Assembly: GCF_964199755.1 (NCBI RefSeq) | Contig: NC_133910.1 | Location: 3,494,501 to 3,558,500 of the forward strand | Direction: 5' to 3' | Length of the DNA: 64,000 nucleotides | Origin: Larus michahellis | Lineage: Eukaryota; Chordata; Aves; Charadriiformes; Laridae | Shown here: positions 5,193 through 45,799 of the stretch, piece after piece | Layout of the letters: each line of letters begins with the position of its first letter | How positions within the stretch are numbered: the first letter of the stretch is position 1 | Position numbers and translations under genes: made by a program | Notes under the pieces: model-generated | Databases searched by the model: none | The model's input: only the letters and a program-made list of their open reading frames with translations | What the model was told of the DNA's origin: nothing

Positions 5193-5463
5193 CCCAGCAG
5201 GAATGATGGCCACTTACCCACAGTTTTGGCTGATGACTTGCAAATGTGCTTCCTGTTTAGGAGATGATAAAACCTAAGCAGAGCCTGGCTGAACATGCCA
5301 TGCCAAAGCTCGGCTCATCCCCCTCTCATGGCATTTACTGGATGCTGCCTTGACTTGTGAAAGCTTTCTTCCTCTTCCCCAGAGCGGTTAAGGTTGGAAG
5401 GCACCTCTGGAGGTCATCAGGTCCAATTCTCCTGCTCAGGCAGGGCTACCCAGAGCTAGATGC

Positions 5464-5637
5464 CCGGGACCGTGTCCCAGGCAATGGACCATGTCCATCA
5501 CCCCAGCCCCTCTCCCACCAGACAGACCCCGTAGGCCTGAAGAGGTCCTACAGGCACCATCCGGCACCCATGGCCCAAGGCAACGGACCACGTCCATCGG
5601 CCCAGCCCCTCTCCCACCAGATGGACCCCGTAGGCCT
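5464..5637. repeat. 99-bp minisatellite, 1.8 copies (unit 1)
   Basis: Two tandem copies, the second incomplete, of a 99-bp sequence just beyond the poly(A) signal of the gene. The first copy starts inside CR1-like 3'-end sequence (CCGGGACCGTGTCC), so the minisatellite probably grew out of the CR1 fragment. Confidence 0.9.
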
Positions 5638-5811
5638 TCAGGAGCAGCAGGAAAAAGGGGAGAAAGCAGCACGGGTGGGATAAGGATGTCTTTATTTGCT
5701 GTCAGAGGTAGGTTTTGGAGTCCTGAGCAGGGCCTTCTGGAGCCCGTGGGGGTCGGCACATGGCCCCGCTGCTGGCCCAGCCCTCCTTCTGCCAGCTGCC
5801 AGGGTCTTCTT

Positions 5812-6855
5812 CTAGCATCCGCGGGGTGGTGGCTTCTTGGCAGGTGCGTCCGAGTCCTGGGAGCTGTTGGCCTTCCTCTTCAGAGGGCGCCGGGGCCCCC
5901 GAGGTGAGCAGCTCCTGCCCCGGCTGGGAGCAGAGGCACTGGCCACAGCCTCCCCCAGCTCCTGTCCCCCGTGGAAGGCAACAGAGCTGGTGTGGGCCCC
6001 GGGGTTGCACTCCCGTCCTCCTTGGATGTCCGCCCAGCCGGTCATGTTCACCACGCAGAACTCCCCTGCCTCGTAGAAGCCAGCGGAGGTGCTTCTGACC
6101 ACCAGGTTGCCCTCCAGTCTTTCTTGGAAGGCCACCCAGCTCGTGCTGGCCCCAGGACTGCACTCGCGCCGCCAGCTGAAGACAGCGGAGCCGACGGCGG
6201 CCCCAGGGCTGTCCTGCGACCTGCTGGCAGCACGGCACTCGTCCTGGCGCAGGATCTGGTGGGCTGGCCTCTCCAGGTGTTCTGCCGTGAACTTAATGAG
6301 TCCTTGCACGAACAGTATCGTGCCGACTCCCAAGTCTGCCCGCAGCACCTCGACCAGGTGCCCTTCGTGCAGGCCGTAGACGGGCAGGGCGCTCAGGACC
6401 ATCTCCTCCAGCATGAGCGCCTGAGGAGGATCTTCCTCAAACATGCGGCCCAGCTCCTGACGCAGCCAGGGCCACAGGAGCTGCAGGAGAGCCGGGTGCT
6501 TCCTGAAAAGGCTCCCCCATTCCATGGCGTGGAGGCCGCCCAGGAGCTCTGCATCCCCATCGCTTGGCCGGGGTACCTGGGATGCTCTTGGAGGTGGCAG
6601 TCCATAAGCTCCCTCTTCTTCGGCCCTGCCCAAGGATGCCGCAGGTGGTCTTGTCGCATCCTCTTCAAGTGTCTCCCCGCGCAGCAAGTGCTGGATGACC
6701 GTTGTCCTCCTCCTGCAGACGAGGCACTCGGGGTCGGTCTCTGCCTGCTGCTGGATACACTTGAAACAGAAGCGGTGGTCGCATCGCACCGGACAGGTTG
6801 CGTTGTTCCAGGTGTAAAGGCAGATGGGGCAGTGCTCCTCCGAGGCTGTGGCCAT
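5812..6855 (-). CDS. TOPORS-like RING-finger E3 ligase, copy 1
   Basis: 347 residues. A C3HC4 RING sits at the N terminus: Cys9, Cys12, Cys25, His27, Cys30, Cys33, Cys44, Cys47. Residues about 113-195 (LFRKHPALL, PWLRQEL, then a helical stretch ending FVQGLIKFTAEHL) match the conserved region after the RING in TOPORS, a nuclear ubiquitin/SUMO E3 ligase. The C terminus has two basic clusters (KRK 326-328, KK 340-341), a probable bipartite nuclear signal. The long Arg/Ser-rich tail of TOPORS is absent (TOPORS is about 1000 residues). E3 activity is inferred; substrate unknown. ATG 6855 is the first ATG in the predicted mRNA and has a strong Kozak context (AACATGG). Predicted mRNA: TATA 7295-7301, exon 1 to 7061, GTGAGC donor, 120-nt intron 7060-6941 with a pyrimidine-rich acceptor, exon 2, AATAAA at 5691-5696. 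Another GTGAGT donor lies at 7257-7262. Private residues: Arg59, Ala305, Asn330. Confidence 0.85.
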   Translation of the reverse strand: MATASEEHCPICLYTWNNATCPVRCDHRFCFKCIQQQAETDPECLVCRRRTTVIQHLLRGETLEEDATRPPAASLGRAEEEGAYGLPPPRASQVPRPSDGDAELLGGLHAMEWGSLFRKHPALLQLLWPWLRQELGRMFEEDPPQALMLEEMVLSALPVYGLHEGHLVEVLRADLGVGTILFVQGLIKFTAEHLERPAHQILRQDECRAASRSQDSPGAAVGSAVFSWRRECSPGASTSWVAFQERLEGNLVVRSTSAGFYEAGEFCVVNMTGWADIQGGRECNPGAHTSSVAFHGGQELGEAVASASAPSRGRSCSPRGPRRPLKRKANSSQDSDAPAKKPPPRGC

Positions 6856-7294
6856 GTTCAGCACACACTGCGGTGGGCTGTGGAGAGCTGGTGGGGACGG
6901 ACTCCTCCTCCTCTGGCACACTGCAGCGGCGGGTGTCCCGCTAGGAGAGGAAGAGAGGCCACGGTCAATGCCTGGCCCAGGGAGGGCTGGGGTGAAGCCC
7001 AGGTCCCTGGAGGAGGAAACCCGCCCAGCTCCCCAGGGTGAAGGTTCCCGCACAGCTCACCTCTGCTGCAGCAAGCGCGTCTCCTGTCTGCCCCGGCTGC
7101 CTGAGCCAGCCAGGGCCGGGGAAAAACCTGCAGTGGCTGCGGGGACGGCACCGGGCACTGAGAGCTGCAGTCACCAGCTCCCAGGGCACCGGCCCAGCAC
7201 CGAGCCAAAGGCTTCTGCTCCGCACTCCAAACCTCGCCCAAACGCTCAGCTGGAGCACTCACGCACGAGCCGGCTGGGAGAGGCCGGGTGCCCC

Positions 7295-7385
7295 AATATA
7301 AGCACCGAGGGCCGTGATGTCACAAGGCATGGCCGGGAGACGTCACAATGCATGGCCGGGGGATGTCCTAATGCATGGCGCAGGG
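7295..7385 (-). promoter_or_regulatory. TATA box and CRE-like repeats, copy 1
   Basis: On the - strand a TTATATT box (7295-7301) lies about 30 nt before the predicted start of exon 1. Just upstream are three tandem copies of a 23-24-bp sequence (about 7316-7385). The first two contain CRE-like sites, TGATGTCA (7315-7322) and GACGTCAC (7339-7346), each one base from TGACGTCA; the third has a decayed GATGTCCT. Each repeat also carries an (A/G)GCATGG or TGCATGG core. CREB/CREM/ATF binding is inferred. Confidence 0.65.
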
Positions 7386-8634
7386 ATGCCACCACGGCCC
7401 GTCCTCGTCTGCAGCGCTCGCCCCAGCAGCCCTGCAGCCCCAGCACACGCCTCGGGGCTTACGGCAACGTCACTGCCCGCTCCATCCCCCACATCTTCTG
7501 GCGTGTGTTCAGCATTGCTGCTTCAAATCAGCCACCCGGGCCTTGGCAGTGGCTTCACAGTGGTTCAGGCAAGCACAGATACGGCAAATAAGCAGCAACT
7601 AAAACCCACCTGCGCTCCTGCAAGTGACTATGTCTCATCCTACATTTAAAACCCAAAACCTACCCGAAATATCACCACAAATCCTATTGTCTTTCCTTGG
7701 TTTGAGCAGTTCCTGTGAATTCAATAACTCCAGTAAAGCCATCTCATTCCAGACGTGTTTGATTTCAAGAAACTTTTAGGAATATGGTCCCTATTCACTT
7801 GCTTATGAGGAAAATGATTTGAAGCTTTTAATATTTTAAGGTGATTTTCTTATGCCTTTCTGAGATGAACTCGTGTGCTTAGAAGGAGCATGACCATACC
7901 ATTACTTGCTTCAATCCAGATTGTCACTGCTCGGTAGCTGCATCTTTACTGGGTCTGGCCTCCTTGCCCTGAAGGAACAAGACAGACCACTAGCCCAGGG
8001 CACCAAAGGTCTGGTTCGCAGGAAAACACAGCTGGTTTCTAGCTTTGAGCAAAGGGGAAGACCCTGATGGCTTCGGGCGTCTGGCCTCTGCCACTTCCAG
8101 GCTTCCAGATCTTGACACCATCTTTGCCAACGTGGTTTCGAGTGACATTGGTTCCCACCAATCCCCAGGCCCTGGTTCACCCCCAAAATGCAGCTGAGGG
8201 CTGAGATCGGAAAATGGGGACCAACCAACTCTCCATAGCTGGGCAGAAGGGGAGAGGGAAGCCTGAGTTCAGCATAAGCGTTACAGGCCATGGCCGTCGA
8301 TGACCACCCATCTCCAGGTTGGCTCACACGTGCAGTCGCTGCCCGGGCCTGACAGATCCTTCACCCTCCCAAGGAGGTGGATTGCCGTCACTCGTTCTTG
8401 CGCAGACGGTGTGTGTGAGCACCACAGTGGTTGCTGACCCTTTCATAGGGCCATGATGTGATATCCCTTTGGTTAAAAATGCACAGAATCAGCTTGTGAT
8501 TTCCACTACTATTCCCTCGAGTGAGATTTTTCCTTTTTTTTCGGTCAGGGAAAGAGCCATCAGGTCCTCACTCGCGGTGCAGATGGCAGAGCTTTAATGG
8601 GACAGAGTGTAAAGGGCTCGGTTACTGGCTGAGC

Positions 8635-8850
8635 TCTCGTGAATTGCCCTATGCTGGACCCGCTCCAGTGGTTCCCTGTCCCTCTTGAAGTGGGAAGCCC
8701 AAAACTGGATGCAGTATTCCAGGCGTGGCCTCACCAGTGCAGAGTAGAGGGGGAGAATGACCTCCTTTGACCTACTGGCCACACTCTTCCTTATGCAGCC
8801 CAGGATTCCATTGGCCTTTTTGGCAAGAAGGGCACATTGTTGGCTCATGG
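8635..8850 (-). mobile_element. CR1 LINE ORF2 fragment (unit 1 spacer)
   Basis: On the - strand the translation reads [19 protein letters not shown] and then a [16 protein letters not shown]-type stretch. This is the C-terminal part of the CR1 reverse-transcriptase protein, past the catalytic domain. It is a short dead fragment carried along with the amplified unit. Confidence 0.85.
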
Positions 8851-10172
8851 ATAATTTACTGTTTTCAGAGAAAGGCTGTTGGTGGTGCTGTGATGGATGT
8901 CAACTGGGCTGGGGCTGGGAGCCCGCTGCGGCAGGGCTGCGGGAGCACGTGCGTGTTGTTTCAGTGACTTGAGTCCTTGCACTCACAAGCGAGAGACAGG
9001 CAAATAAACATAAGTCCGACTTGAGCATTGCAGCTGGTTTTCTGTAGAGCATGATGATCTTCTGGAAAAGCCCCGGTGAACCCAGGCCCAGAAAACCACC
9101 ATGGCACCAAGTCCCCCTTTAGGACCTCATCACATGGAGATCCTGGTCCCCTGTTGATCCACCAGCTTCTATTTTAGATTTTTTGTATTTAAGCTCATGG
9201 AGCAGCACAGCAAAGGTGGTGTAGGGGAAAAGAAGCTTGTTAAAAGACTAGAAAGCATGGCAATGTCTTGGAGCGCGGTCAGAAAGTGCCTACCATGGTG
9301 CAGCTGGGTTCAACCTTTGGATTAAGCCAGTGATTTCTTCCCAGATGACACCAAATCCAAACCACGGGTCAGGCTTTGCAAAGTACAGCAGCACCCTGTT
9401 GAGGTTTGCACTCTATGGTTTTGCACGGTGTGGTGCAGTGCATCGAGGTTTGCCTCGTACGGTGCCGCAGCACAGAGCACACGTGGGAGCTGGGGTGTTA
9501 TAAACAGGTCCTACCCCCGAGGCTGGAGAGCCATCCCTCAATGTTTCAGCAGAAAGCTATCACTTTGGGCGCAAACACCTCATTCCGCAGATTCCCTCGT
9601 TTTTCCACAACCTTTCCACCCCCAGGGAAACATCAGCCTATTTGCATATTAGAGAAGATGCTGGCCGGTGAGCTATGGGCAGGTTTTCTCATGAGGTCAG
9701 AGCCCTTGTGAGCATTTCCAGTGGTTGCCTGTGGGAGGAAGGAGTCCCTGGGGCTGGCTGGCTGGCTGCTGACGCAGGGTTGGGGAAAGCCCTCAGCTTC
9801 GCCCCGCTGGACAGGACTGAGGATCTATTTCACCCACTGCATGAGGATCCTGGCAGCACCAACCTGGTGTGTGTGCAGCCAGCACTGGCAGAGCCCACTT
9901 GCCCAGCAGGAATGATGGCCACTTACCCACAGTTTTGGCTGATGACTTGCAAATGTGCTTCCTGTTTAGGAGATGATAAAAGCTAACCAGAGCCTGGCTG
10001 AACATGCCATGCCAAAGCTCGGCTCATCCCCCTCTCATGGCATTTACTGGATGCTGCCTTGACTTGTGAAAGTTTTCTTCCTCTTCCCCAGAGCGGTTAA
10101 GGTTGGAAGGCACCTCTGGAGGTCATCAGGTCCAATTCTCCTGCTCAGGCAGGGCTACCCAGAGCTAGATGC

Positions 10173-10445
10173 CCGGGACCGTGTCCCAGGCAATGGACCA
10201 TGTCCATCACCCCAGCCCCTCTCCCACCAGACAGACCCCGTAGGCCTGAAGAGGTCCTACAGGCACCATCCGGCACCCATGGCCCAAGGCAACGGACCAC
10301 GTCCATCGGCCCAGCCCCTCTCCCACCAGACGGACCCCGTAGGCCTGAAGAGGTCCTACAGGCACCATCCGGCACCCATGGCCCAAGGCAACGGACCACG
10401 TCCATCGGCCCAGCCCCTCTCCCACCAGACGGACCCCGTAGGCCT
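10173..10445. repeat. 99-bp minisatellite, 2.8 copies (unit 2)
   Basis: Long form: one extra internal copy compared with unit 1. The two internal copies are identical. Confidence 0.92.
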
Positions 10446-10619
10446 TCAGGAGCAGCAGGAAAAAGGGGAGAAAGCAGCACGGGTGGGATAAGGATGTCTT
10501 TATTTGCTGTCAAAGGTAGGTTTTGGAGTCCTGAGCAGGGCCTTCTGGAGCCCGTGGGGGTCGGCACGTGGCCCCGCTGCTGGCCCAGCCCTCCTTTTGC
10601 CAGCTGCCAGGGTCTTCTT

Positions 10620-11663
10620 CTAGCATCCGCGGGGTGGTGGCTTCTTGGCGGGTGCGTCCGAGTCCTGGGAGCTGTCGGCTTTCCTCTTCAGAGGGCGCCG
10701 GGGCCCCTGAGGTGAGCAGCTCCTGCCCCGGCTGGGAGCAGAGGCACTGACCACAGCCTCCCCCAACTCCTGTCCCCCGTGGAAGGCAACAGAGCTGGTG
10801 TGGGCCCTGGGGTTGCACTCCCGTCCTCCTTGGATGTCCGCCCAGCCGGTCATGTTCACCACGCAGAACTCCCCTGCCTCGTAGAAGCCAGCGGAGGTGC
10901 TTCTGACCACCAGGTTGCCCTCCAGTCTTTCTTGGAAGGCCACCCAGCTCGTGCTGGCCCCAGGACTGCACTCGCGCCGCCAGCTGAAGACAGCGGAGCC
11001 GACGGCGGCCCCAGGGCTGTCCTGCGACCTGCTGGCAGCACGGCACTCGTCCTGGCGCAGGATCTGGTGGGCTGGCCTCTCCAGGTGTTCTGCCGTGAAC
11101 TTAATGAGTCCTTGCACGAACAGTATCGTGCCGACTCCCAAGTCTGCCCGCAGCACCTCGACCAGGTGCCCTTCGTGCAGGCCGTAGACGGGCAGGGCGC
11201 TCAGGACCATCTCCTCCAGCATGAGCGCCTGAGGAGGATCTTCCTCAAACATGCGGCCCAGCTCCTGACGCAGCCAGGGCCACAGGAGCTGCAGGAGAGC
11301 CGGGTGCTTCCTGAAAAGGCTCCCCCATTCCATGGCGTGGAGGCCGCCCAGGAGCTCTGCATCCCCATCGCTTGGCCGGGGTACCTGGGATGCTCTTGGA
11401 GGTGGCAGTCCATAAGCTCCCTCTTCTTCGGCCCTGCCCAAGGATGCCGCAGGTGGTCTTGTCGCATCCTCTTCAAGTGTCTCCCCGTGCAGCAAGTGCT
11501 GGATGACCGTTGTCCTCCTCCTGCAGACGAGGCACTCGGGGTCGGTCTCTGCCCGCTGCTGGATACACTTGAAACAGAAGCGGTGGTCGCATCGCACCGG
11601 ACAGGTTGCGTTGTTCCAGGTGTAAAGGCAGATGGGGCAGTGCTCCTCCGAGGCTGTGGCCAT
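10620..11663 (-). CDS. TOPORS-like RING-finger E3 ligase, copy 2
   Basis: Intact 347 codons. Differs from copies 3-7 only at residue 286 (Arg instead of Gly), inside an internal repeat. A-type residues: Arg37, His59, Asp99, Gln319. 5'-UTR intron 11749-11868; poly(A) signal 10499-10504. Confidence 0.85.
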   Translation of the reverse strand: MATASEEHCPICLYTWNNATCPVRCDHRFCFKCIQQRAETDPECLVCRRRTTVIQHLLHGETLEEDATRPPAASLGRAEEEGAYGLPPPRASQVPRPSDGDAELLGGLHAMEWGSLFRKHPALLQLLWPWLRQELGRMFEEDPPQALMLEEMVLSALPVYGLHEGHLVEVLRADLGVGTILFVQGLIKFTAEHLERPAHQILRQDECRAASRSQDSPGAAVGSAVFSWRRECSPGASTSWVAFQERLEGNLVVRSTSAGFYEAGEFCVVNMTGWADIQGGRECNPRAHTSSVAFHGGQELGEAVVSASAPSRGRSCSPQGPRRPLKRKADSSQDSDAPAKKPPPRGC

Positions 11664-12102
11664 GTTCAGCACACGCTGCGGTGGGCTGTGGAGAGCTGGT
11701 GGGGACGGACTCCTCCTCCTCTGGCACGCTGCAGCGGCGGGTGTCCCGCTAGGAGAGGAAGAGAGGCCACGGTCAATGCCTGGCCCAGGGAGGGCTGGGG
11801 TGAAGCCCAGGTCCCTGGAGGAGGAAACCCGCCCAGCTCCCCAGGGTGAAGGTTCCCGCACAGCTCACCTCTGCTGCAGCAAGCGCGTCTCCTGTCTGCC
11901 CCGGCTGCCTGAGCCAGCCAGGGCCGGGGAAAAACCTGCAGTGGCTGCGGGGACGGCACCGGGCACTGAGAGCTGCAGTCACCAGCTCCCAGGGCACCGG
12001 CCCAGCACCGAGCCAAAGGCTTCTGCTCCGCACTCCAAACCTCGCCCAAACGCTCAGCTGGAGCACTCACGCACGAGCCGGCTGGGAGAGGCCGGGTGCC
12101 CC

Positions 12103-12193
12103 AATATAAGCACCGAGGGCCGTGATGTCACAATGCATGGCCGGGAGACGTCACAATGCATGGCCGGGGGATGTCCTAATGCATGGCGCAGGG
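12103..12193 (-). promoter_or_regulatory. TATA box and CRE-like repeats, copy 2
   Basis: TATA at 12103-12109. All three repeats carry the ATGCATGG core; CRE-like sites as in copy 1. Confidence 0.65.
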
Positions 12194-13442: not shown

Positions 13443-13658
13443 TCTCGTGAATTGCCCTATGCTGGACCCGCTCCAGTGGTTCCCTGTCCCTCTTGAAGTG
13501 GGAAGCCCAAAACTGGATGCAGTATTCCAGGCGTGGCCTCACCAGTGCAGAGTAGAGGGGGAGAATGACCTCCTTTGACCTACTGGCCACACTCTTCCTT
13601 ATGCAGCCCAGGATTCCATTGGCCTTTTTGGCAAGAAGGGCACATTGTTGGCTCATGG
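13443..13658 (-). mobile_element. CR1 fragment, unit 2 spacer
   Basis: Same fragment as in unit 1, copied with the unit. Confidence 0.85.
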
Positions 13659-15253: not shown

Positions 15254-15427
15254 TCAGGAGCAGCAGGAAAAAGGGGAGAAAGCAGCACGGGTGGGATAAG
15301 GATGTCTTTATTTGCTGTCAAAGGTAGGTTTTGGAGTCCTGAGCAGGGCCTTCTGGAGCCCGTGGGGGTCGGCACGTGGCCCCGCTGCTGGCCCAGCCCT
15401 CCTTTTGCCAGCTGCCAGGGTCTTCTT

Positions 15428-16471: not shown

Positions 16472-16910
16472 GTTCAGCACACGCTGCGGTGGGCTGTGGA
16501 GAGCTGGTGGGGACGGACTCCTCCTCCTCTGGCACGCTGCAGCGGCGGGTGTCCCGCTAGGAGAGGAAGAGAGGCCACGGTCAATGCCTGGCCCAGGGAG
16601 GGCTGGGGTGAAGCCCAGGTCCCTGGAGGAGGAAACCCGCCCAGCTCCCCAGGGTGAAGGTTCCCGCACAGCTCACCTCTGCTGCAGCAAGCGCGTCTCC
16701 TGTCTGCCCCGGCTGCCTGAGCCAGCCAGGGCCGGGGAAAAACCTGCAGTGGCTGCGGGGACGGCACCGGGCACTGAGAGCTGCAGTCACCAGCTCCCAG
16801 GGCACCGGCCCAGCACCGAGCCAAAGGCTTCTGCTCCGCACTCCAAACCTCGCCCAAACGCTCAGCTGGAGCACTCACGCACGAGCCGGCTGGGAGAGGC
16901 CGGGTGCCCC

Positions 16911-17001
16911 AATATAAGCACCGAGGGCCGTGATGTCACAATGCATGGCCGGGAGACGTCACAATGCATGGCCGGGGGATGTCCTAATGCATGGCGCAGG
17001 G
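16911..17001 (-). promoter_or_regulatory. TATA box and CRE-like repeats, copy 3
   Basis: TATA at 16911-16917. Repeats as in copy 2. Confidence 0.65.
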
Positions 17002-19788: not shown

Positions 19789-20061
19789 CCGGGACCGTGT
19801 CCCAGGCAATGGACCATGTCCATCACCCCAGCCCCTCTCCCACCAGACAGACCCCGTAGGCCTGAAGAGGTCCTACAGGCACCATCCGGCACCCATGGCC
19901 CAAGGCAACGGACCACGTCCATCGGCCCAGCCCCTCTCCCACCAGACGGACCCCGTAGGCCTGAAGAGGTCCTACAGGCACCATCCGGCACCCATGGCCC
20001 AAGGCAACGGACCACGTCCATCGGCCCAGCCCCTCTCCCACCAGACGGACCCCGTAGGCCT
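19789..20061. repeat. 99-bp minisatellite, 2.8 copies (unit 4)
   Basis: Long form, same sequence as units 2 and 3. Confidence 0.92.
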
Positions 20062-20235
20062 TCAGGAGCAGCAGGAAAAAGGGGAGAAAGCAGCACGGGT
20101 GGGATAAGGATGTCTTTATTTGCTGTCAAAGGTAGGTTTTGGAGTCCTGAGCAGGGCCTTCTGGAGCCCGTGGGGGTCGGCACGTGGCCCCGCTGCTGGC
20201 CCAGCCCTCCTTTTGCCAGCTGCCAGGGTCTTCTT

Positions 20236-21279: not shown

Positions 21280-21718
21280 GTTCAGCACACGCTGCGGTGG
21301 GCTGTGGAGAGCTGGTGGGGACGGACTCCTCCTCCTCTGGCACGCTGCAGCGGCGGGTGTCCCGCTAGGAGAGGAAGAGAGGCCACGGTCAATGCCTGGC
21401 CCAGGGAGGGCTGGGGTGAAGCCCAGGTCCCTGGAGGAGGAAACCCGCCCAGCTCCCCAGGGTGAAGGTTCCCGCACAGCTCACCTCTGCTGCAGCAAGC
21501 GCGTCTCCTGTCTGCCCCGGCTGCCTGAGCCAGCCAGGGCCGGGGAAAAACCTGCAGTGGCTGCGGGGACGGCACCGGGCACTGAGAGCTGCAGTCACCA
21601 GCTCCCAGGGCACCGGCCCAGCACCGAGCCAAAGGCTTCTGCTCCGCACTCCAAACCTCGCCCAAACGCTCAGCTGGAGCACTCACGCACGAGCCGGCTG
21701 GGAGAGGCCGGGTGCCCC

Positions 21719-21809
21719 AATATAAGCACCGAGGGCCGTGATGTCACAATGCATGGCCGGGAGACGTCACAATGCATGGCCGGGGGATGTCCTAATGCAT
21801 GGCGCAGGG
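21719..21809 (-). promoter_or_regulatory. TATA box and CRE-like repeats, copy 4
   Basis: TATA at 21719-21725. Identical to copy 3. Confidence 0.65.
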
Positions 21810-23058
21810 ATGCCACCATGGCCCGTCCTCGTCTGCAGCGCTCGCCCCAGCAGCCCTGCAGCCCCAGCACACGCCTCGGGGCTTACGGCAACGTCACTGC
21901 CCGCTCCATCCCCCACATCTTCTGGCGTGTGTTCAGCATTGCTGCTTCAAATCAGCCACCCGGGCCTTGGCAGTGGCTTCACAGTGGTTCAGGCAAGCAC
22001 AGATACGGCAAATAAGCAGCAACTAAAACCCACCTGCGCTCCTGCAAGTGACTATGTCTCATCCTACATTTAAAACCCAAAACCTACCCGAAATATCACC
22101 ACAAATCCTATTGTCTTTCCTTGGTTTGAGCAGTTCCTGTGAATTCAATAACTCCAGTAAAGCCATCTCATTCCAGACGTGTTTGATTTCAAGAAACTTT
22201 TAGGAATATGGTCCCTATTCACTTGCTTATGAGGAAAATGATTTGAAGCTTTTAATATTTTAAGGTGATTTTCTTATGCCTTTCTGAGATGAACTCGTGT
22301 GCTTAGAAGGAGCATGACCATACCATTACTTGCTTCAATCCAGATTGTCACTGCTCGGTAGCTGCATCTTTACTGGATCTGGCCTCCTTGCCCTGAAGGA
22401 ACAAGACAGACCACTAGCCCAGGGCACCAAAGGTCTGGTTCGCAGGAAAACACAGCTGGTTTCTAGCTTTGAGCAAAGAGGAAGACCCTGATGGCTTCGG
22501 GCGTCTGGCCTCTGCCGCTTCCAGGCTTCCAGATCTTGACACCATCTTTGCCAACGTGGTTTCGAGTGACATTGGTTCCCACCAATCCCCAGGCCCTGGT
22601 TCACCCCCAAAATGCAGCTGAGGGCTGAGATCGGAAAATGGGGATCAACCAACTCTCCATAGCTGGGCAGAAGGGGAGAGGGAAGCCTGAGTTCAGCATA
22701 AGCGTTACAGGCCATGGCCGTCGATGACCACCCATCTCCAGGTTGGCTCACACGTGCAGTCGCTGCCCGGGCCTGACAGATCCTTCACCCACCCAAGGAG
22801 GTGGATTGCCGTCACTCGTTCTTGCGCAGATGGTGTGTGTGAGCACCACAGCGGTTGCTGACCCTTTCATAGGGCCACGATGTGATATCCCTTTGGTTAA
22901 AAATGCACAGAATCAGCTTGTGATTTCCACTACTATTCCCTCGAGTGAGATTTTTCTTTTTTTTTCGGTCAGGGAAAGAGCCATCGGGTCCTCACTCGCG
23001 GTGCAGATGGCAGAGCTTTAATGGGACAGAGTGTAAAGGGCTCGGTTACTGGCTGAGC

Positions 23059-24869: not shown

Positions 24870-25043
24870 TCAGGAGCAGCAGGAAAAAGGGGAGAAAGCA
24901 GCACGGGTGGGATAAGGATGTCTTTATTTGCTGTCAAAGGTAGGTTTTGGAGTCCTGAGCAGGGCCTTCTGGAGCCCGTGGGGGTCGGCACGTGGCCCCG
25001 CTGCTGGCCCAGCCCTCCTTTTGCCAGCTGCCAGGGTCTTCTT

Positions 25044-26087: not shown

Positions 26088-26520
26088 GTTCAGCACACGC
26101 TGCGGTGGGCTGTGGAGAGCTGGTGGGGACGGACTCCTCCTCCTCTGGCACGCTGCAGCGGCGGGTGTCCCGCTAGGAGAGGAAGAGAGGCCACGGTCAA
26201 TGCCTGGCCCAGGGAGGGCTGGGGTGAAGCCCAGGTCCCTGGAGGAGGAAACCCGCCCAGCTCCCCAGGGTGAAGGTTCCCGCACAGCTCACCTCTGCTG
26301 CAGCAAGCGCGTCTCCTGTCTGCCCCGGCTGCCTGAGCCAGCCAGGGCCGGGGAAAAACCTGCAGTGGCTGCGGGGACGGGCACTGAGAGCTGCAGTCAC
26401 CAGCTCCCAGGGCACCGGCCCAGCACCGAGCCAAAGGCTTCTGCTCCGCACTCCAAACCTCGCCCAAACGCTCAGCTGGAGCACTCACGCACGAGCCAGC
26501 TGGGAGAGGCCGGGTGCCCC

Positions 26521-26611
26521 AATATAAGCACCGAGGGCCGTGATGTCACAATGCATGGCCGGGAGACGTCACAATGCATGGCCGGGGGATGTCCTAATGC
26601 ATGGCGCAGGG
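26521..26611 (-). promoter_or_regulatory. TATA box and CRE-like repeats, copy 5
   Basis: TATA at 26521-26527, 6 bp closer to the CDS than in copies 1-4 because of the B-type deletion in predicted exon 1. Confidence 0.65.
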
Positions 26612-29397: not shown

Positions 29398-29571
29398 CCA
29401 GGACCGTGTCCCAGGCAATGGACCATGTCCATCACCCCAGCCCCTCTCCCACCAGACGGACCCCGTAGGCCTGAAGAGGTCCTACAGGCACCATCCGGCA
29501 CCCATGGCCCAAGGCAACGGACCATGTCCATTGGCCCAGCCCCTCTCCCACCAGACGGACCCCGTAGGCCT
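29398..29571. repeat. 99-bp minisatellite, 1.8 copies (unit 6)
   Basis: Short form with B-type bases (CCCAGGACC at the start, ACCATGTCC in the second copy). Confidence 0.92.
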
Positions 29572-29745
29572 TCAGGAGCAGCAGGAAAAAGGGGAGAAAG
29601 CAGCACGGGTGGGATAAGGATGTCTTTATTTGCTGTCAGAGGTAGGTTTTGGAGTCCTGAGCAGGGCCTTCTGGAGCCTGTGGGGGTCGGCACATGGCCC
29701 CGCTGCTGGCCCAGCCCTCCTTTTGCCAGCTGCCAGGGTCTTCTT

Positions 29746-30789: not shown

Positions 30790-31228
30790 GTTCAGCACAC
30801 GCTGCGGTGGGCTGTGGAGAGCTGGTGGGGACGGACTCCTCCTCCTCTGGCACGCTGCAGCGGCGGGTGTCCCGCTAGGAGAGGAAGAGAGGCCACGGTC
30901 AATGCCTGGCCCAGGGAGGGCTGGGGTGAAGCCCAGGTCCCTGGAGGAGGAAACCCGCCCAGCTCCCCAGGGTGAAGGTTCCCGCACAGCTCACCTCTGC
31001 TGCAGCAAGCGCGTCTCCTGTCTGCCCCGGCTGCCTGAGCCAGCCAGGGCCGGGGAAAAACCTGCAGTGGCTGCGGGGACGGCACCGGGCACTGAGAGCT
31101 GCAGTCACCAGCTCCCAGGGCACCGGCCCAGCACCGAGCCAAAGGCTTCTGCTCCGCACTCCAAACCTCGCCCAAACGCTCAGCTGGAGCACTCACGCAC
31201 GAGCCGGCTGGGAGAGGCCGGGTGCCCC

Positions 31229-31319
31229 AATATAAGCACCGAGGGCCGTGATGTCACAATGCATGGCCGGGAGACGTCACAATGCATGGCCGGGGGATGT
31301 CCTAATGCATGGCGCAGGG
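31229..31319 (-). promoter_or_regulatory. TATA box and CRE-like repeats, copy 6
   Basis: TATA at 31229-31235, A-type spacing to the CDS. Confidence 0.65.
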
Positions 31320-34379: not shown

Positions 34380-34553
34380 TCAGGAGCAGCAGGAAAAAGG
34401 GGAGAAAGCAGCACGGGTGGGATAAGGATGTCTTTATTTGCTGTCAAAGGTAGGTTTTGGAGTCCTGAGCAGGGCCTTCTGGAGCCCGTGGGGGTCGGCA
34501 CGTGGCCCCGCTGCTGGCCCAGCCCTCCTTTTGCCAGCTGCCAGGGTCTTCTT

Positions 34554-35597: not shown

Positions 35598-36030
35598 GTT
35601 CAGCACACGCTGCGGTGGGCTGTGGAGAGCTGGTGGGGACGGACTCCTCCTCCTCTGGCACGCTGCAGCGGCGGGTGTCCCGCTAGGAGAGGAAGAGAGG
35701 CCACGGTCAATGCCTGGCCCAGGGAGGGCTGGGGTGAAGCCCAGGTCCCTGGAGGAGGAAACCCGCCCAGCTCCCCAGGGTGAAGGTTCCCGCACAGCTC
35801 ACCTCTGCTGCAGCAAGCGCGTCTCCTGTCTGCCCCGGCTGCCTGAGCCAGCCAGGGCCGGGGAAAAACCTGCAGTGGCTGCGGGGACGGGCACTGAGAG
35901 CTGCAGTCACCAGCTCCCAGGGCACCGGCCCAGCACCGAGCCAAAGGCTTCTGCTCCGCACTCCAAACCTCGCCCAAACGCTCAGCTGGAGCACTCACGC
36001 ACGAGCCAGCTGGGAGAGGCCGGGTGCCCC

Positions 36031-36121
36031 AATATAAGCACCGAGGGCCGTGATGTCACAAGGCATGGCCGGGAGACGTCACAATGCATGGCCGGGGGAT
36101 GTCCTAATGCATGGCGCAGGG
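36031..36121 (-). promoter_or_regulatory. TATA box and CRE-like repeats, copy 7
   Basis: TATA at 36031-36037, B-type spacing. The first repeat has AAGGCATGG instead of AATGCATGG. Confidence 0.65.
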
Positions 36122-37369: not shown

Positions 37370-37585
37370 TCTCGTGAATTGCCCTATGCTGGACCCGCTC
37401 CAGTGGTTCCCTGTCCCTCTTGAAGTGGGAAGCCCAAAACTGGATGTGGTATTCCAGGCGTGGCCTCACCAGTGCAGAGTAGAGGGGGAGAATGACCTCC
37501 TTTGACCTACTGGCCACACTCTTCCTTATGCAGCCCAGGATTCCATTGGCCTTTTTGGCAAGAAGGGCACATTGTTGGCTCATGG
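37370..37585 (-). mobile_element. CR1 fragment, unit 7 spacer
   Basis: Same fragment, B-type sequence. Confidence 0.85.
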
Positions 37586-38907
37586 ATAATTTACTGTTTT
37601 TAGAGAAAGGCTGTTGGTGGTGCTGTGATGGATGTCAACTGGGCTGGGGCTGGGAGCCCGCTGCGGCAGGGCTGCGGGAGCACGTGCGTGTTGTTTCAGT
37701 GACTTGAGTCCTTGCACTCACAAGCGAGAGACAGGCAAATAAACATAAGTCCGACTTGAGCATTGCAGCTGGTTTTCTGTAGAGCATGATGATCTTCTGG
37801 AAAAGCCCCGGTGAACCCAGGCCCAGAAAACCACCATGGCACCAAGTCCCCCTTTAGGACCTCATCACATGGAGATCCTGGTCCCCTGTTGATCCACCAG
37901 CTTCTATTTTAGATTTTTTGTATTTAAGCTCATGGAGCAGCACAGCAAAGGTGGTGTAGGGGAAAAGAAGCTTGTTAAAAGACTAGAAAGCATGGCAATG
38001 TCTTGGAGCGCGGTCAGAAAGTGCCTACCATGGTGCAGCTGGGTTCAGCCTTTGGATTAAGCCAGTGATTTCTTCCCAGATGACACCAAATCCAAACCAC
38101 GGGTCAGGCTTTGCAAAGTACAGCAGCACCCTGTTGAGGTTTGCACTCTATGGTTTTGCACGGTGTGGTGCAGTGCATCGAGGTTTGCCTCGTACGGTGC
38201 CGCAGCACAGAGCACACGTGGGAGCTGGGGTGTTATAAACAGGTCCTACCCCCGAGGCTGGAGAGCCATCCCTCAATGTTTCAGCAGAAAGCTATCACTT
38301 TGGGCGCAAACACCTCATTCCGCAGATTCCCTCGTTTTCCCACAACCTTTCCACCCCCAGGGAAACATCAGCCTATTTGCATATTAGAGAAGATGCTGGC
38401 CGGTGAGCTATGGGCAGGTTTTCTCATGAGGTCAGAGCCCTTGTGAGCATTTCCAGTGGTTGCCTGTGGGAGGAAGGAGTCCCTGGGGCTGGCTGGCTGG
38501 CTGCTGACGCAGGGTTGGGGAAAGCCCTCAGCTTCGCCCTGCTGGACAGGACTGAGGATCTATTTCACCCACTGCATGAGGATCCTGGCAGCACCAACCT
38601 GGTGTGTGTGCAGCCAGCACTGGCAGAGCCCACTTGCCCAGCAGGAATGATGGCCACTTACCCACAGTTTTGGCTGATGACTTGCAAATGTGCTTCCTGT
38701 TTAGGAGATGATAAAACCTAACCAGAGCCTGGCTGAACATGCCATGCCAAAGCTCGGCTCATCCCCCTCTCATGGCATTTACTGGATGCTGCCTTGACTT
38801 GTGAAAGCTTTCTTCCTCTTCCCCAGAGCGGTTAAGGTTGGAAGGCACCTCTGGAGGTCATCAGGTCCAATTCTCCTGCTCAGGCAGGGCTACCCAGAGC
38901 TAGATGC

Positions 38908-39081
38908 CCAGGACCGTGTCCCAGGCAATGGACCATGTCCATCACCCCAGCCCCTCTCCCACCAGACGGACCCCGTAGGCCTGAAGAGGTCCTACAGGCA
39001 CCATCCGGCACCCATGGCCCAAGGCAACGGACCATGTCCATCGGCCCAGCCCCTCTCCCACCAGACGGACCCCGTAGGCCT
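38908..39081. repeat. 99-bp minisatellite, 1.8 copies (unit 8)
   Basis: Short form, B-type bases. Confidence 0.92.
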
Positions 39082-39255
39082 TCAGGAGCAGCAGGAAAAA
39101 GGGGAGAAAGCAGCACGGGTGGGATAAGGATGTCTTTATTTGCTGTCAGAGGTAGGTTTTGGAGTCCTGAGCAGGGCCTTCTGGAGCCTGTGGGGGTCGG
39201 CACATGGCCCCGCTGCTGGCCCAGCCCTCCTTTTGCCAGCTGCCAGGGTCTTCTT

Positions 39256-40299
39256 CTAGCATCCGCGGGGTGGTGGCTTCTTGGCGGGTGCGTCCGAGTC
39301 CTGGGAGCTGTCGGCCTTCCTCTTCAGAGGGCGCCGGGGCCCCCGAGGTGAGCAGCTCCTGCTCCGGCTGGGAGCAGAGGCACTGACCACAGCCTCCCCC
39401 AGCTCCTGTCCCCCATGGAAGGCAGCAGAGCTGGTGTGGGCCCCGGGGTTGCACTCCCGTCCTCCTTGGATGTCCGCCCAGCCGGTCATGTTCACCACAC
39501 AGAACTCCCCTGCCTCGTAGAAGCCAGCGGAGGTGCTTCTGACCACCAGGTTGCCCTCCAGTCTTTCTTGGAAGGCCACCCAGCTCGTGCTGGCCCCAGG
39601 ACTGCACTCGCGCCGCCAGCTGAAGACAGCGGAGCCGACGGCGGCCCCAGGGCTGTCCTGCGACCTGCTGGCAGCACGGCACTCGTCCTGGCGCAGGATC
39701 TGGTGGGCTGGCCTCTCCAGGTGTTCTGCCGTGAACTTAATGAGTCCTTGCACGAACAGTATCGTGCCGACTCCCAAGTCTGCCCGCAGCACCTCGACCA
39801 GGTGCCCTTCGTGCAGGCCGTAGACGGGCAGGGCGCTCAGGACCATCTCCTCCAGCATGAGCGCCTGAGGAGGATCTTCCTCAAACATGCGGCCCAGCTC
39901 CTGACGCAGCCAGGGCCACAGGAGCTGCAGGAGAGCCGGGTGCTTCCTGAAAAGGCTCCCCCATTCCATGGCGTGGAGGCCGCCCAGGAGCTCTGCATCC
40001 CCATTGCTTGGCCGGGGTACCTGGGATGCTCTTGGAGGTGGCAGTCCATAAGCTCCCTCTTCTTCGGCCCTGCCCAAGGATGCCGCAGGTGGTCTTGTCG
40101 CATCCTCTTCAAGTGTCTCCCCGCACAGCAAGTGCTGGATGACCGTTGTCCTCCTCCTGCAGACGAGGCACTCGGGGTCGGTCTCTGCCTGCTGCTGGAT
40201 ACACTTGAAACAGAAGCGGTGGTCGCATCGCACCGGACAGGTTGCGTTGTTCCAGGTGTAAAGGCAGATGGGGCAGTGCTCCTCCGAGGCCGTGGCCAT
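39256..40299 (-). CDS. TOPORS-like RING-finger E3 ligase, copy 8
   Basis: Intact B-type protein, identical to copy 9. Differs from copies 3-7 at residues 37 (Gln), 59 (Cys), 99 (Asn), 292 (Ala), 313 (Ser) and 319 (Arg). None of these is a zinc ligand. Intron 40385-40504; poly(A) signal 39135-39140. Confidence 0.85.
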   Translation of the reverse strand: MATASEEHCPICLYTWNNATCPVRCDHRFCFKCIQQQAETDPECLVCRRRTTVIQHLLCGETLEEDATRPPAASLGRAEEEGAYGLPPPRASQVPRPSNGDAELLGGLHAMEWGSLFRKHPALLQLLWPWLRQELGRMFEEDPPQALMLEEMVLSALPVYGLHEGHLVEVLRADLGVGTILFVQGLIKFTAEHLERPAHQILRQDECRAASRSQDSPGAAVGSAVFSWRRECSPGASTSWVAFQERLEGNLVVRSTSAGFYEAGEFCVVNMTGWADIQGGRECNPGAHTSSAAFHGGQELGEAVVSASAPSRSRSCSPRGPRRPLKRKADSSQDSDAPAKKPPPRGC

Positions 40300-40732
40300 G
40301 TTCAGCACACGCTGCGGTGGGCTGTGGAGAGCTGGTGGGGACGGACTCCTCCTCCTCTGGCACGCTGCAGCGGCGGGTGTCCCGCTAGGAGAGGAAGAGA
40401 GGCCACGGTCAATGCCTGGCCCAGGGAGGGCTGGGGTGAAGCCCAGGTCCCTGGAGGAGGAAACCCGCCCAGCTCCCCAGGGTGAAGGTTCCCGCACAGC
40501 TCACCTCTGCTGCAGCAAGCGCGTCTCCTGTCTGCCCCGGCTGCCTGAGCCAGCCAGGGCCGGGGAAAAACCTGCAGTGGCTGCGGGGACGGGCACTGAG
40601 AGCTGCAGTCACCAGCTCCCAGGGCACCGGCCCAGCACCGAGCCAAAGGCTTCTGCTCCGCACTCCAAACCTCGCCCAAACGCTCAGCTGGAGCACTCAC
40701 GCACGAGCCAGCTGGGAGAGGCCGGGTGCCCC

Positions 40733-40823
40733 AATATAAGCACCGAGGGCCGTGATGTCACAATGCATGGCCGGGAGACGTCACAATGCATGGCCGGGGG
40801 ATGTCCTAATGCATGGCGCAGGG
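40733..40823 (-). promoter_or_regulatory. TATA box and CRE-like repeats, copy 8
   Basis: TATA at 40733-40739, B-type spacing, ATGCATGG in all three repeats. Confidence 0.65.
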
Positions 40824-42071
40824 ATGCCACCACGGCCCGTCCTCGTCTGCAGCGCTCGCCCCAGCAGCCCTGCAGCCCCAGCACACGCCTCGGGGCTTAC
40901 GGCAACGTCACTGCCCGCTCCATCCCCCACATCTTCTGGCGTGTGTTCAGCATTGCTGCTTCAAATCAGCCACCCGGGCCTTGGCAGTGGCTTCACAGTG
41001 GTTCAGGCAAGCACAGATACGGCAAATAAGCAGCAACTAAAACCCACCTGCGCTCCTGCAAGTGACTATGTCTCATCCTACATTTAAAACCCAAAACCTA
41101 CCCGAAATATCACCACAAATCCTATTGTCTTTCCTTGGTTTGAGCAGTTCCTGTGAATTCAATAACTCCAGTAAAGCCATCTCATTCCAGACGTGTTTGA
41201 TTTCAAGAAACTTTTAGGAATATGGTCCCTATTCACTTGCTTATGAGGAAAATGATTTGAAGCTTTTAATATTTTAAGGTGATTTTCTTATGCCTTTCTG
41301 AGATGAACTCGTGTGCTTAGAAGGAGCATGACCATACCATTACTTGCTTCAATCCAGATTGTCACTGCTCGGTAGCTGCATCTTTACTGGATCTGGCCTC
41401 CTTGCCCTGAAGGAACAAGACAGACCACTAGCCCAGGGCACCAAAGGTCTGGTTCGCAGGAAAACACAGCTGGTTTCTAGCTTTGAGCAAAGAGGAAGAC
41501 CCTGATGGCTTCGGGCGTCTGGCCTCTGCCGCTTCCAGGCTTCCAGATCTTGACACCATCTTTGCCAACGTGGTTTCGAGTGACATTGGTTCCCACCAAT
41601 CCCCAGGCCCTGGTTCACCCCCAAAATGCAGCTGAGGGCTGAGATCGGAAAATGGGGATCAACCAACTCTCCATAGCTGGGCAGAAGGGGAGAGGGAAGC
41701 CTGAGTTCAGCATAAGCGTTACAGGCCATGGCCGTCGATGACCACCCATCTCCAGGTTGGCTCACACGTGCAGTCGCTGCCCGGGCCTGACAGATCCTTC
41801 ACCCTCCCAAGGAGGTGGATTGCCGTCACTCGTTCTTGCGCAGACGGTGTGTGTGAGCACCACAGTGGTTGCTGACCCTTTCATAGGGCCATGATGTGAT
41901 ATCCCTTTGGTTAAAAATGCACAGAATCAGCTTGTGATTTCCACTACTATTCCCTCGAGTGAGATTTTTCTTTTTTTTCGGTCAGGGAAAGAGCCATCAG
42001 GTCCTCACTCGCGGTGCAGATGGCAGAGCTTTAATGGGACAGAGTGTAAAGGGCTCGGTTACTGGCTGAGC

Positions 42072-42287
42072 TCTCGTGAATTGCCCTATGCTGGACCCGC
42101 TCCAGTGGTTCCCTGTCCCTCTTGAAGTGGGAAGCCCAAAACTGGATGTGGTATTCCAGGCGTGGCCTCACCAGTGCAGAGTAGAGGGGGAGAATGACCT
42201 CCTTTGACCTACTGGCCACACTCTTCCTTATGCAGCCCAGGATTCCATTGGCCTTTTTGGCAAGAAGGGCACATTGTTGGCTCATGG
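42072..42287 (-). mobile_element. CR1 fragment, unit 8 spacer
   Basis: Same fragment, B-type sequence. Confidence 0.85.
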
Positions 42288-43609
42288 ATAATTTACTGTT
42301 TTTAGAGAAAGGCTGTTGGTGGTGCTGTGATGGATGTCAACTGGGCTGGGGCTGGGAGCCCGCTGCGGCAGGGCTGCGGGAGCACGTGCGTGTTGTTTCA
42401 GTGACTTGAGTCCTTGCACTCACAAGCGAGAGACAGGCAAATAAACATAAGTCCGACTTGAGCATTGCAGCTGGTTTTCTGTAGAGCATGATGATCTTCT
42501 GGAAAAGCCCCGGTGAACCCAGGCCCAGAAAACCACCATGGCACCAAGTCCCCCTTTAGGACCTCATCACATGGAGATCCTGGTCCCCTGTTGATCCACC
42601 AGCTTCTATTTTAGATTTTTTGTATTTAAGCTCATGGAGCAGCACAGCAAAGGTGGTGTAGGGGAAAAGAAGCTTGTTAAAAGACTAGAAAGCATGGCAA
42701 TGTCTTGGAGCGCGGTCAGAAAGTGCCTACCATGGTGCAGCTGGGTTCAGCCTTTGGATTAAGCCAGTGATTTCTTCCCAGATGACACCAAATCCAAACC
42801 ACGGGTCAGGCTTTGCAAAGTACAGCAGCACCCTGTTGAGGTTTGCACTCTATGGTTTTGCACGGTGTGGTGCAGTGCATCGAGGTTTGCCTCGTACGGT
42901 GCCGCAGCACAGAGCACACGTGGGAGCTGGGGTGTTATAAACAGGTCCTACCCCCGAGGCTGGAGAGCCATCCCTCAATGTTTCAGCAGAAAGCTATCAC
43001 TTTGGGCGCAAACACCTCATTCCGCAGATTCCCTCGTTTTCCCACAACCTTTCCACCCCCAGGGAAACATCAGCCTATTTGCATATTAGAGAAGATGCTG
43101 GCCGGTGAGCTATGGGCAGGTTTTCTCATGAGGTCAGAGCCCTTGTGAGCATTTCCAGTGGTTGCCTGTGGGAGGAAGGAGTCCCTGGGGCTGGCTGGCT
43201 GGCTGCTGACGCAGGGTTGGGGAAAGCCCTCAGCTTCGCCCCGCTGGACAGGACTGAGGATCTATTTCACCCACTGCATGAGGATCCTGGCAGCACCAAC
43301 CTGGTGTGTGTGCAGCCAGCACTGGCAGAGCCCACTTGCCCAGCAGGAATGATGGCCACTTACCCACAGTTTTGGCTGATGACTTGCAAATGTGCTTCCT
43401 GTTTAGGAGATGATAAAACCTAACCAGAGCCTGGCTGAACATGCCATGCCAAAGCTCGGCTCATCCCCCTCTCATGGCATTTACTGGATGCTGCCTTGAC
43501 TTGTGAAAGCTTTCTTCCTCTTCCCCAGAGCGGTTAAGGTTGGAAGGCACCTCTGGAGGTCATCAGGTCCAATTCTCCTGCTCAGGCAGGGCTACCCAGA
43601 GCTAGATGC

Positions 43610-43783
43610 CCAGGACCGTGTCCCAGGCAATGGACCATGTCCATCACCCCAGCCCCTCTCCCACCAGACGGACCCCGTAGGCCTGAAGAGGTCCTACAGG
43701 CACCATCCGGCACCCATGGCCCAAGGCAACGGACCATGTCCATCGGCCCAGCCCCTCTCCCACCAGACGGACCCCGTAGGCCT
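43610..43783. repeat. 99-bp minisatellite, 1.8 copies (unit 9)
   Basis: Short form, same as unit 8. Confidence 0.92.
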
Positions 43784-43957
43784 TCAGGAGCAGCAGGAAA
43801 AAGGGGAGAAAGCAGCACGGGTGGGATAAGGATGTCTTTATTTGCTGTCAGAGGTAGGTTTTGGAGTCCTGAGCAGGGCCTTCTGGAGCCTGTGGGGGTC
43901 GGCACATGGCCCCGCTGCTGGCCCAGCCCTCCTTTTGCCAGCTGCCAGGGTCTTCTT

Positions 43958-45001
43958 CTAGCATCCGCGGGGTGGTGGCTTCTTGGCGGGTGCGTCCGAG
44001 TCCTGGGAGCTGTCGGCCTTCCTCTTCAGAGGGCGCCGGGGCCCCCGAGGTGAGCAGCTCCTGCTCCGGCTGGGAGCAGAGGCACTGACCACAGCCTCCC
44101 CCAGCTCCTGTCCCCCATGGAAGGCAGCAGAGCTGGTGTGGGCCCCGGGGTTGCACTCCCGTCCTCCTTGGATGTCCGCCCAGCCGGTCATGTTCACCAC
44201 ACAGAACTCCCCTGCCTCGTAGAAGCCAGCGGAGGTGCTTCTGACCACCAGGTTGCCCTCCAGTCTTTCTTGGAAGGCCACCCAGCTCGTGCTGGCCCCA
44301 GGACTGCACTCGCGCCGCCAGCTGAAGACAGCGGAGCCGACGGCGGCCCCAGGGCTGTCCTGCGACCTGCTGGCAGCACGGCACTCGTCCTGGCGCAGGA
44401 TCTGGTGGGCTGGCCTCTCCAGGTGTTCTGCCGTGAACTTAATGAGTCCTTGCACGAACAGTATCGTGCCGACTCCCAAGTCTGCCCGCAGCACCTCGAC
44501 CAGGTGCCCTTCGTGCAGGCCGTAGACGGGCAGGGCGCTCAGGACCATCTCCTCCAGCATGAGCGCCTGAGGAGGATCTTCCTCAAACATGCGGCCCAGC
44601 TCCTGACGCAGCCAGGGCCACAGGAGCTGCAGGAGAGCCGGGTGCTTCCTGAAAAGGCTCCCCCATTCCATGGCGTGGAGGCCGCCCAGGAGCTCTGCAT
44701 CCCCATTGCTTGGCCGGGGTACCTGGGATGCTCTTGGAGGTGGCAGTCCATAAGCTCCCTCTTCTTCGGCCCTGCCCAAGGATGCCGCAGGTGGTCTTGT
44801 CGCATCCTCTTCAAGTGTCTCCCCGCACAGCAAGTGCTGGATGACCGTTGTCCTCCTCCTGCAGACGAGGCACTCGGGGTCGGTCTCTGCCTGCTGCTGG
44901 ATACACTTGAAACAGAAGCGGTGGTCGCATCGCACCGGACAGGTTGCGTTGTTCCAGGTGTAAAGGCAGATGGGGCAGTGCTCCTCCGAGGCCGTGGCCA
45001 T
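43958..45001 (-). CDS. TOPORS-like RING-finger E3 ligase, copy 9
   Basis: Intact B-type protein, identical to copy 8. The array is cut only about 170 bp upstream of the promoter repeats, so this copy keeps its TATA and CRE-like elements but lacks the distal spacer present in the other units. Intron 45087-45206; poly(A) signal 43837-43842. Confidence 0.85.
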   Translation of the reverse strand: MATASEEHCPICLYTWNNATCPVRCDHRFCFKCIQQQAETDPECLVCRRRTTVIQHLLCGETLEEDATRPPAASLGRAEEEGAYGLPPPRASQVPRPSNGDAELLGGLHAMEWGSLFRKHPALLQLLWPWLRQELGRMFEEDPPQALMLEEMVLSALPVYGLHEGHLVEVLRADLGVGTILFVQGLIKFTAEHLERPAHQILRQDECRAASRSQDSPGAAVGSAVFSWRRECSPGASTSWVAFQERLEGNLVVRSTSAGFYEAGEFCVVNMTGWADIQGGRECNPGAHTSSAAFHGGQELGEAVVSASAPSRSRSCSPRGPRRPLKRKADSSQDSDAPAKKPPPRGC

Positions 45002-45434
45002 GTTCAGCACACGCTGCGGTGGGCTGTGGAGAGCTGGTGGGGACGGACTCCTCCTCCTCTGGCACGCTGCAGCGGCGGGTGTCCCGCTAGGAGAGGAAGA
45101 GAGGCCACGGTCAATGCCTGGCCCAGGGAGGGCTGGGGTGAAGCCCAGGTCCCTGGAGGAGGAAACCCGCCCAGCTCCCCAGGGTGAAGGTTCCCGCACA
45201 GCTCACCTCTGCTGCAGCAAGCGCGTCTCCTGTCTGCCCCGGCTGCCTGAGCCAGCCAGGGCCGGGGAAAAACCTGCAGTGGCTGCGGGGACGGGCACTG
45301 AGAGCTGCAGTCACCAGCTCCCAGGGCACCGGCCCAGCACCGAGCCAAAGGCTTCTGCTCCGCACTCCAAACCTCGCCCAAACGCTCAGCTGGAGCACTC
45401 ACGCACGAGCCGGCTGGGAGAGGCCGGGTGCCCC

Positions 45435-45525
45435 AATATAAGCACCGAGGGCCGTGATGTCACAAGGCATGGCCGGGAGATGTCACAAGGCATGGCCGGG
45501 GGATGTCCTAATGCATGGCGCAGGG
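45435..45525 (-). promoter_or_regulatory. TATA box and CRE-like repeats, copy 9
   Basis: TATA at 45435-45441. The second CRE-like site is weakened here (GATGTCAC instead of GACGTCAC), and two repeats carry AAGGCATGG. Confidence 0.62.
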
Positions 45526-45799
45526 ATGCCACCATGGCCCGTCCTCGTCTGCAGCGCTCGCCCCAGCAGCCCTGCAGCCCCAGCACACGCCTCGGGGCTT
45601 ACGGCAACGTCACTGCCCGCTCCATCCCCCACATCTTCTGGCGTGTGTTCAGCATTGCTGCTTCAAATCAGCCACCCGGGCCTTGGCAGTGGCTTCCCAG
45701 AGCCCTGTCAGTTCGCTTTGGCCTGAAGTGGCCCCCGTCTCCAGGGATACACAGCAGGAGGGTTGCTGGGGAGCCCAGCTCAAGAAGAGCGAGCCCAGA

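Follow-up and report, generated by a model that had tools for sequence, protein, structure and literature searches.

TOPORS is usually present as a single gene. The protein has been described as a SUMO-targeted ubiquitin ligase with several SUMO-interacting motifs, forming a nuclear link between the ubiquitin and SUMO systems (PMC11402782), and a chicken 'E3 ubiquitin-protein ligase Topors-like' appears in a liver expression table with a value of -2.85 (PMC7563548). We have analysed a 64,000-nucleotide stretch of the Larus michahellis genome (contig NC_133910.1, positions 3,494,501 to 3,558,500; hereafter the window), in which nine short TOPORS-like genes are arranged head to tail. The array represents one branch, derived and with its ligase function possibly altered, of an extensive TOPORS-like family located mainly on the probable Z chromosome. 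Searches of an open-access library, which did not extend to subscription papers or genome-annotation pages, revealed no account of such a family. An earlier note, made from the letters of the window, had read the array as a recent local expansion of a nuclear ubiquitin ligase (E3) family; its observation stands, and its interpretation proves half right and too narrow.

Kinship of the array proteins to TOPORS

The TOPORS of this genome is encoded on another contig (C41, at 75.42 Mb; locus L009, 1831-4830, minus strand) as one open frame of 999 residues, and the similarity of the array protein to it extends beyond the RING. Near the N-terminus of the array protein lies a C3HC4 RING with the TOPORS spacing, in which all eight zinc ligands align. 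Removing the RING leaves a pairwise blastp match between the window protein and residues 202-285 of TOPORS (E=5e-9, 27% of 84 positions). With a family profile built without the RING, TOPORS reaches 58.2 bits, whereas none of 2000 shuffled versions of its sequence exceeds 5.1 bits. A profile of the region following the RING, searched among 177,635 PDB sequences, has the PWI domain of PRP3 as its top match (PDB 1x4q, E=0.0039). PRP3 itself is a splicing protein, and the matched entry is not known to contain a RING. No Pfam model matched the post-RING region of the window protein or of full-length TOPORS, so it is this profile search that carries the PWI reading; of 14 members scanned singly against Pfam, one gave a weak match to PWI (E 0.048) and one a weak match to Helicase_PWI (E 0.016). 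Weak Pfam matches to DUF4599 and CSLinker fell far under the cut-off and were dropped. The best single PDB match to the RING, that of equine herpesvirus 1 (1chc), was rejected as its origin, since the TOPORS of the same genome accounts for the RING and the PWI-like region jointly.

The similarity found outside the RING upholds the earlier proposal that the TOPORS RING has been kept together with its adjoining helical domain. The long arginine/serine-rich C-terminal part is absent, as had also been proposed: the protein ends at 347 residues, and no significant match to TOPORS was found past the PWI-like region. Since this long part is missing, the window protein is, as judged from its sequence, a TOPORS-like paralogue rather than a TOPORS. 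Residues ~228-300 of the window copies seem to carry a repeated segment in the tail (ECSPGASTSWVAF / ECNPGAHTSSVAF), where the other aligned members are shorter.

A TOPORS-like family and its upstream module

Genome searches returned 114 matches with the window protein as query and 137 with a C41 member as query. Merging them gives 129 places; when 17 fragments that match in the tail only are set aside, at least 112 TOPORS-like places are left: 84 on C41, 20 on C19 (the contig that carries the window), four on C3, two on C39 and one each on C10 and C32. This count takes in TOPORS as well as 14 short decayed copies lying in a row, and the family counts are lower bounds. In 86 of the 112 places there is no stop inside the match, and by position the family falls into 23 clusters, 16 of them on C41. 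The 14.45-Mb contig C19 carries two arrays, the nine copies of the window and a second array of 11 copies (C19:2.63-2.69 Mb) at mostly 6.2-kb spacing, which share ~99% protein identity and lie 0.8 Mb from the window array. The copies are near-identical, but the idea of a recent local expansion is incomplete: they form one branch of a genome-wide family, with a twin array 0.8 Mb off.

C41 is an 87.7-Mb contig within the 1405-Mb assembly, and carries, besides TOPORS, two DM-domain exons 107 kb apart which, as expected from this spacing, would be DMRT1 and DMRT3. Chicken TOPORS is listed as Z-linked (PMC1876622). Because TOPORS and the DMRT1/DMRT3-like exons sit on C41, we take this contig to be probably the bird Z sex chromosome.

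Several loci elsewhere in the family are worth recording. About 4 kb from TOPORS lies a frame-broken TOPORS-like copy of the C10 type (L051, 1577-2456; C41:75.415 Mb), which suggests that the family may have begun as a tandem duplicate beside TOPORS, with this copy a relic of the founder. A more distant RING gene with a 240-residue frame (L057, 142-864; C41:7.50 Mb) is the nearest to the root, where long branches meet, and may represent a second old TOPORS-like lineage. At G000:C41:57681478-57707775 there are at least 14 short TOPORS-like copies with in-frame stops, spaced mostly by 1854 bases, which form an amplified pseudogene array, and at G000:C41:58320649-58489544 a repeat of ~18.3 kb occurs ten times, each time with two different TOPORS-like genes. 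The two C39 members (L014 and L015, at 0.567 and 2.043 Mb of a 2.68-Mb contig) have opposite orientation and equal scores, and could reflect an inverted duplication or an assembly duplicate.

All nine window copies have a TATA-like GCTTATATTGG followed by a GT-AG interval of exactly 120 nt before the ATG, and an AATAAA 116 nt past the stop. The splice columns are constant in all 15 aligned family members (donor GGTGAG, acceptor AG). This comparison supports, at the level of sequence, a gene structure of promoter, 5'-untranslated region (UTR) intron, single coding exon and poly(A) signal, and agrees with the earlier description of each unit as complete. Retention of the donor and acceptor in 15 of 15 members also means that the copies are not retrocopies, so an origin by retroposition is ruled out. 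The upstream module travels together with the gene: when the 498 bases before copy 4 were searched against the whole genome and 40 of the 114 candidates were scored, every one of the 40 (20 on C19 and 20 on C41) was immediately followed by a TOPORS-like coding match. Compared with 13 other members, the window copy shows higher similarity in its upstream DNA (63-75%) than in its coding sequence (49-59%). Six of 12 members have the TATA-like TGCTTATAT unchanged, with altered forms in others, and in eight of 12 promoters a cyclic AMP response element (CRE)-like TGAYRTCA is present in the 300 bp that precede the TATA-like box, the expectation being 0.00-0.04 each. No similarity to the module was seen in the 1 kb that precedes the start codon of TOPORS, a stretch which need not be its promoter.

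RING divergence in the C19 branch

The two C19 arrays form one clade (100/100) on a stem of 1.27 changes per column, other subfamilies having stems of 0.17-0.41 and the single C10 row 0.69. Three-point estimates of the ratio of nonsynonymous to synonymous substitution (dN/dS) for the RING are 1.11 (0.53-2.69) on the C19 branch compared with 0.34 (0.21-0.52) on six Z branches; for the PWI-like region they are 1.03 (0.65-1.75) compared with 0.78 (0.58-1.07). Relative to the Z branches, RING dN is raised 4.6-fold, dS 1.4-fold and upstream divergence 1.5-fold. Seven C41 members share 39 near-invariant RING positions; C19 retains 20 of these, including all eight zinc ligands (hypergeometric P=0.002). 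Among the residues lost are P24, W37, P45 and L46. W37 and P45 are kept in all seven Z relatives compared, and all 20 C19 copies have Arg or Gln at position 37 and Leu at 45; the C10 member has lost the Pro and kept the Trp. The Ile of the CPIC motif and the basic residue after the last cysteine are kept in the window copies. In RING structures the helix Trp (here W37), the Pro of CPxC (P45) and the CPIC Ile face the ubiquitin-conjugating enzyme (E2), and some active RINGs lack the Trp. What is new here is this fast evolution of the C19 RING (dN/dS of ~1.1 against 0.34) with its zinc ligands kept and Trp37 and Pro45 lost.

With the Pfam zf-C3HC4 model (cut-off 21), three window copies score 21.1-21.3 bits, whereas three C41 members reach 33-45 and TOPORS 36. 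Because W37 and P45 are replaced in all 20 copies and this score is low, active E3 function of the C19 copies is doubtful on sequence grounds, and so is the label of nuclear E3 ligase given to them earlier. The arms-race role suggested at the same time would fit the C19 rates.

Whether the C19 frames might be open by chance was addressed by simulating neutral copies of the ORF (open reading frame) with substitutions only. The frame stayed open in one of 2000 simulations at 0.3 substitutions per site and in none of 2000 at 0.4, where a neutral frame would gather ~9 stops. The dS of the C19 branch, at 0.33-0.45, is close to these divergences. Since a neutral frame would hardly ever stay open, and yet all 20 C19 ORFs are open, simple decay is disfavoured, and the C19 copies look like protein-coding genes under unusual selection.

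Taking these data together, we consider it rather probable that the C19 arrays are a diverged, TOPORS-derived RING-PWI branch made up of complete genes, in which the zinc fold is kept and the E2 surface changed, and whose product partners TOPORS-type ligases in a modified or regulatory role, with the germline as the likeliest setting. The gene unit would multiply as DNA, intron included, with unequal crossing-over or conversion homogenising the copies. The protein, which its basic C-terminal tail would place in the nucleus, may use its PWI-like domain to bind TOPORS-type partners or nucleic acid, and its RING would retain the zinc fold with an altered E2-facing surface, so that E2 use may be weakened or changed and the protein would not behave as an ordinary ligase. 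Amplified families on sex chromosomes are often expressed in the germline, and CRE-like sites are common in spermatid promoters. On account of the former, and of the CRE-like sites in eight of 12 promoters, the germline may be the likeliest setting. That the C19 copies are transcribed, that their product is nuclear and made in the germline, and that it uses E2 weakly and has a regulatory role, we infer. The C19 dN/dS intervals, however, include 1, and the rates alone are compatible with relaxed constraint.

The alternative that survives best, although we think it unlikely, is that these are ordinary active E3s: short TOPORS-like enzymes for ubiquitin (or SUMO), multiplied for the sake of dosage, that tolerate the altered RING and still bind E2. 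The eight zinc ligands, the CPIC Ile and the basic residue after the last cysteine are all consistent with this, as is the fact that Pfam still sees a RING, but the replacement of W37 and P45 in every copy, the drop in zf-C3HC4 score relative to the C41 members and the 4.6-fold rise in RING dN all argue the other way. Somewhat less likely again is relaxed constraint, by which the branch is a set of duplicates heading for loss, their frames still open because conversion from a single surviving copy has homogenised arrays of recent origin. A C19 dN/dS of ~1, the identity of units 3 and 4, the presence of mosaic units and the many decayed copies on C41 could all be accommodated by this model, but the long stem is older than the arrays, ~9 stops would be expected in a neutral frame at a divergence of 0.4, and the eight ligands, the upstream module and the splice sites have been kept.

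A more speculative extension of the regulatory-partner proposal, and one to which we give little credence, is that the C19 arrays are autosomal, many-copy counter-players of the Z-linked TOPORS-like amplicons, whose rebuilt E2-facing surface on a preserved zinc fold would bind or occupy the partners of the Z ligases and damp them in the germline. If true, this would be a copy-number contest between a sex chromosome and an autosome fought through ubiquitin ligases. More broadly, the ~100 short TOPORS relatives offer a concrete system in which to ask why sex chromosomes gather amplified ubiquitin-pathway genes, and the C19 branch a test case for whether selection keeps, as regulators, RING domains that lack the usual E2 contacts.

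Array layout and comparison with known systems

The array occupies window positions 5193-45700 on the minus strand as nine head-to-tail units of 4702 or 4808 bases, which are 98.8-100% identical to the single unit used as a blastn query against the window. Nine intact 347-codon ORFs, all on the minus strand, span 5812-45001 with start-to-start distances of 4808 or 4702 bases; 17 coding sites vary among the copies, with copy-specific differences at, for instance, sites 110, 175 and 176, and no variant introduces a stop. The 4.7-4.8 kb repeat reported earlier is confirmed both by the ORF positions and by the unit matches. The two length classes differ by one 99-base minisatellite step, a 6-base indel and a 1-base indel. 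Units differ pairwise by 0 to 32 substitutions, with zero differences over 4808 bases between units 3 and 4, and units 5 and 7 are mosaics that carry an ORF of the long-unit class inside a short-unit background, the pattern expected from unequal crossing-over or conversion. The copy number of nine is as assembled, and the window contains no N bases. Inflation of one or two real copies by mis-assembly would suit the identical units 3 and 4 and the differences shared by ORFs 8 and 9, but is very improbable given units that differ in a structured way, by up to 32 substitutions plus indels, and the separate 11-copy array, at its own spacing, on the same contig.

Features of the nine-unit array, in window positions (TRF, Tandem Repeats Finder)
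Feature	Position	Strand	TATA-like box	Intron	AATAAA	Remarks
Copy 1 ORF, 347 aa	5812..6855	-	7293-7303	6941-7060	5691-5696	5 residue differences vs copy 3
Copy 2 ORF, 347 aa	10620..11663	-	12101-12111	11749-11868	10499-10504	1 residue difference vs copy 3
Copy 3 ORF, 347 aa	15428..16471	-	16909-16919	16557-16676	15307-15312	Unit identical to copy 4 unit
Copy 4 ORF, 347 aa	20236..21279	-	21717-21727	21365-21484	20115-20120	
Copy 5 ORF, 347 aa	25044..26087	-	26519-26529	26173-26292	24923-24928	Protein identical to copy 3
Copy 6 ORF, 347 aa	29746..30789	-	31227-31237	30875-30994	29625-29630	Protein identical to copy 3
Copy 7 ORF, 347 aa	34554..35597	-	36029-36039	35683-35802	34433-34438	Protein identical to copy 3
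Copy 8 ORF, 347 aa	39256..40299	-	40731-40741	40385-40504	39135-39140	6 residue differences vs copy 3
Copy 9 ORF, 347 aa	43958..45001	-	45433-45443	45087-45206	43837-43842	11 base differences vs copy 3, same as copy 8
99-bp minisatellite, 2.6 copies, downstream of copy 4	19804..20061	.				Five such arrays in window (TRF); main source of unit length difference
23-bp tandem repeats directly upstream of copy 4 TATA-like box, CRE-like TGACATCA at end	21739..21820	-				TRF: present in nine units

Open frames of 171-417 residues on the plus strand of the array units were not counted as genes; they are antisense to the promoter, UTR and ORF, and homologues were not sought. Scans of the window against Rfam and for tRNAs gave no matches. 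Outside the array, a single-exon ORF at 1293-2621 (plus strand) encodes a rhodopsin-type G protein-coupled receptor of 442 residues, with P2Y2 and P2Y4 as its nearest solved relatives, and at ~62400-63600 (plus strand) there are two exon matches to glutamine synthetase (GLUL), a gene that probably extends past the window edge.

Among the closest systems known are the TOPORS-like genes of C41, such as the arrays at 63.69 Mb (338 residues) and at 58.3 Mb (334 and 309 residues), which share with the window genes the gene structure, the upstream module with its 5'-UTR intron, the RING, the PWI-like domain, a basic C-terminal tail and tandem amplification. The C41 genes have only 32-38% protein identity to the window copy, and differ in that their RING is conserved, with W37 and P45 kept. 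The chicken 'Topors-like' protein of the liver expression table (PMC7563548) would, by its name, be a TOPORS relative; it is one entry and not an array. With TOPORS itself the array proteins share a RING of equal spacing followed by a PWI-like helical region, and a coding sequence in one open frame. They differ from it in length (347 residues compared with 999), in the changes at W37 and P45 of the RING, and in that the long C-terminal part, which in TOPORS follows the PWI-like region, is absent from the array proteins.

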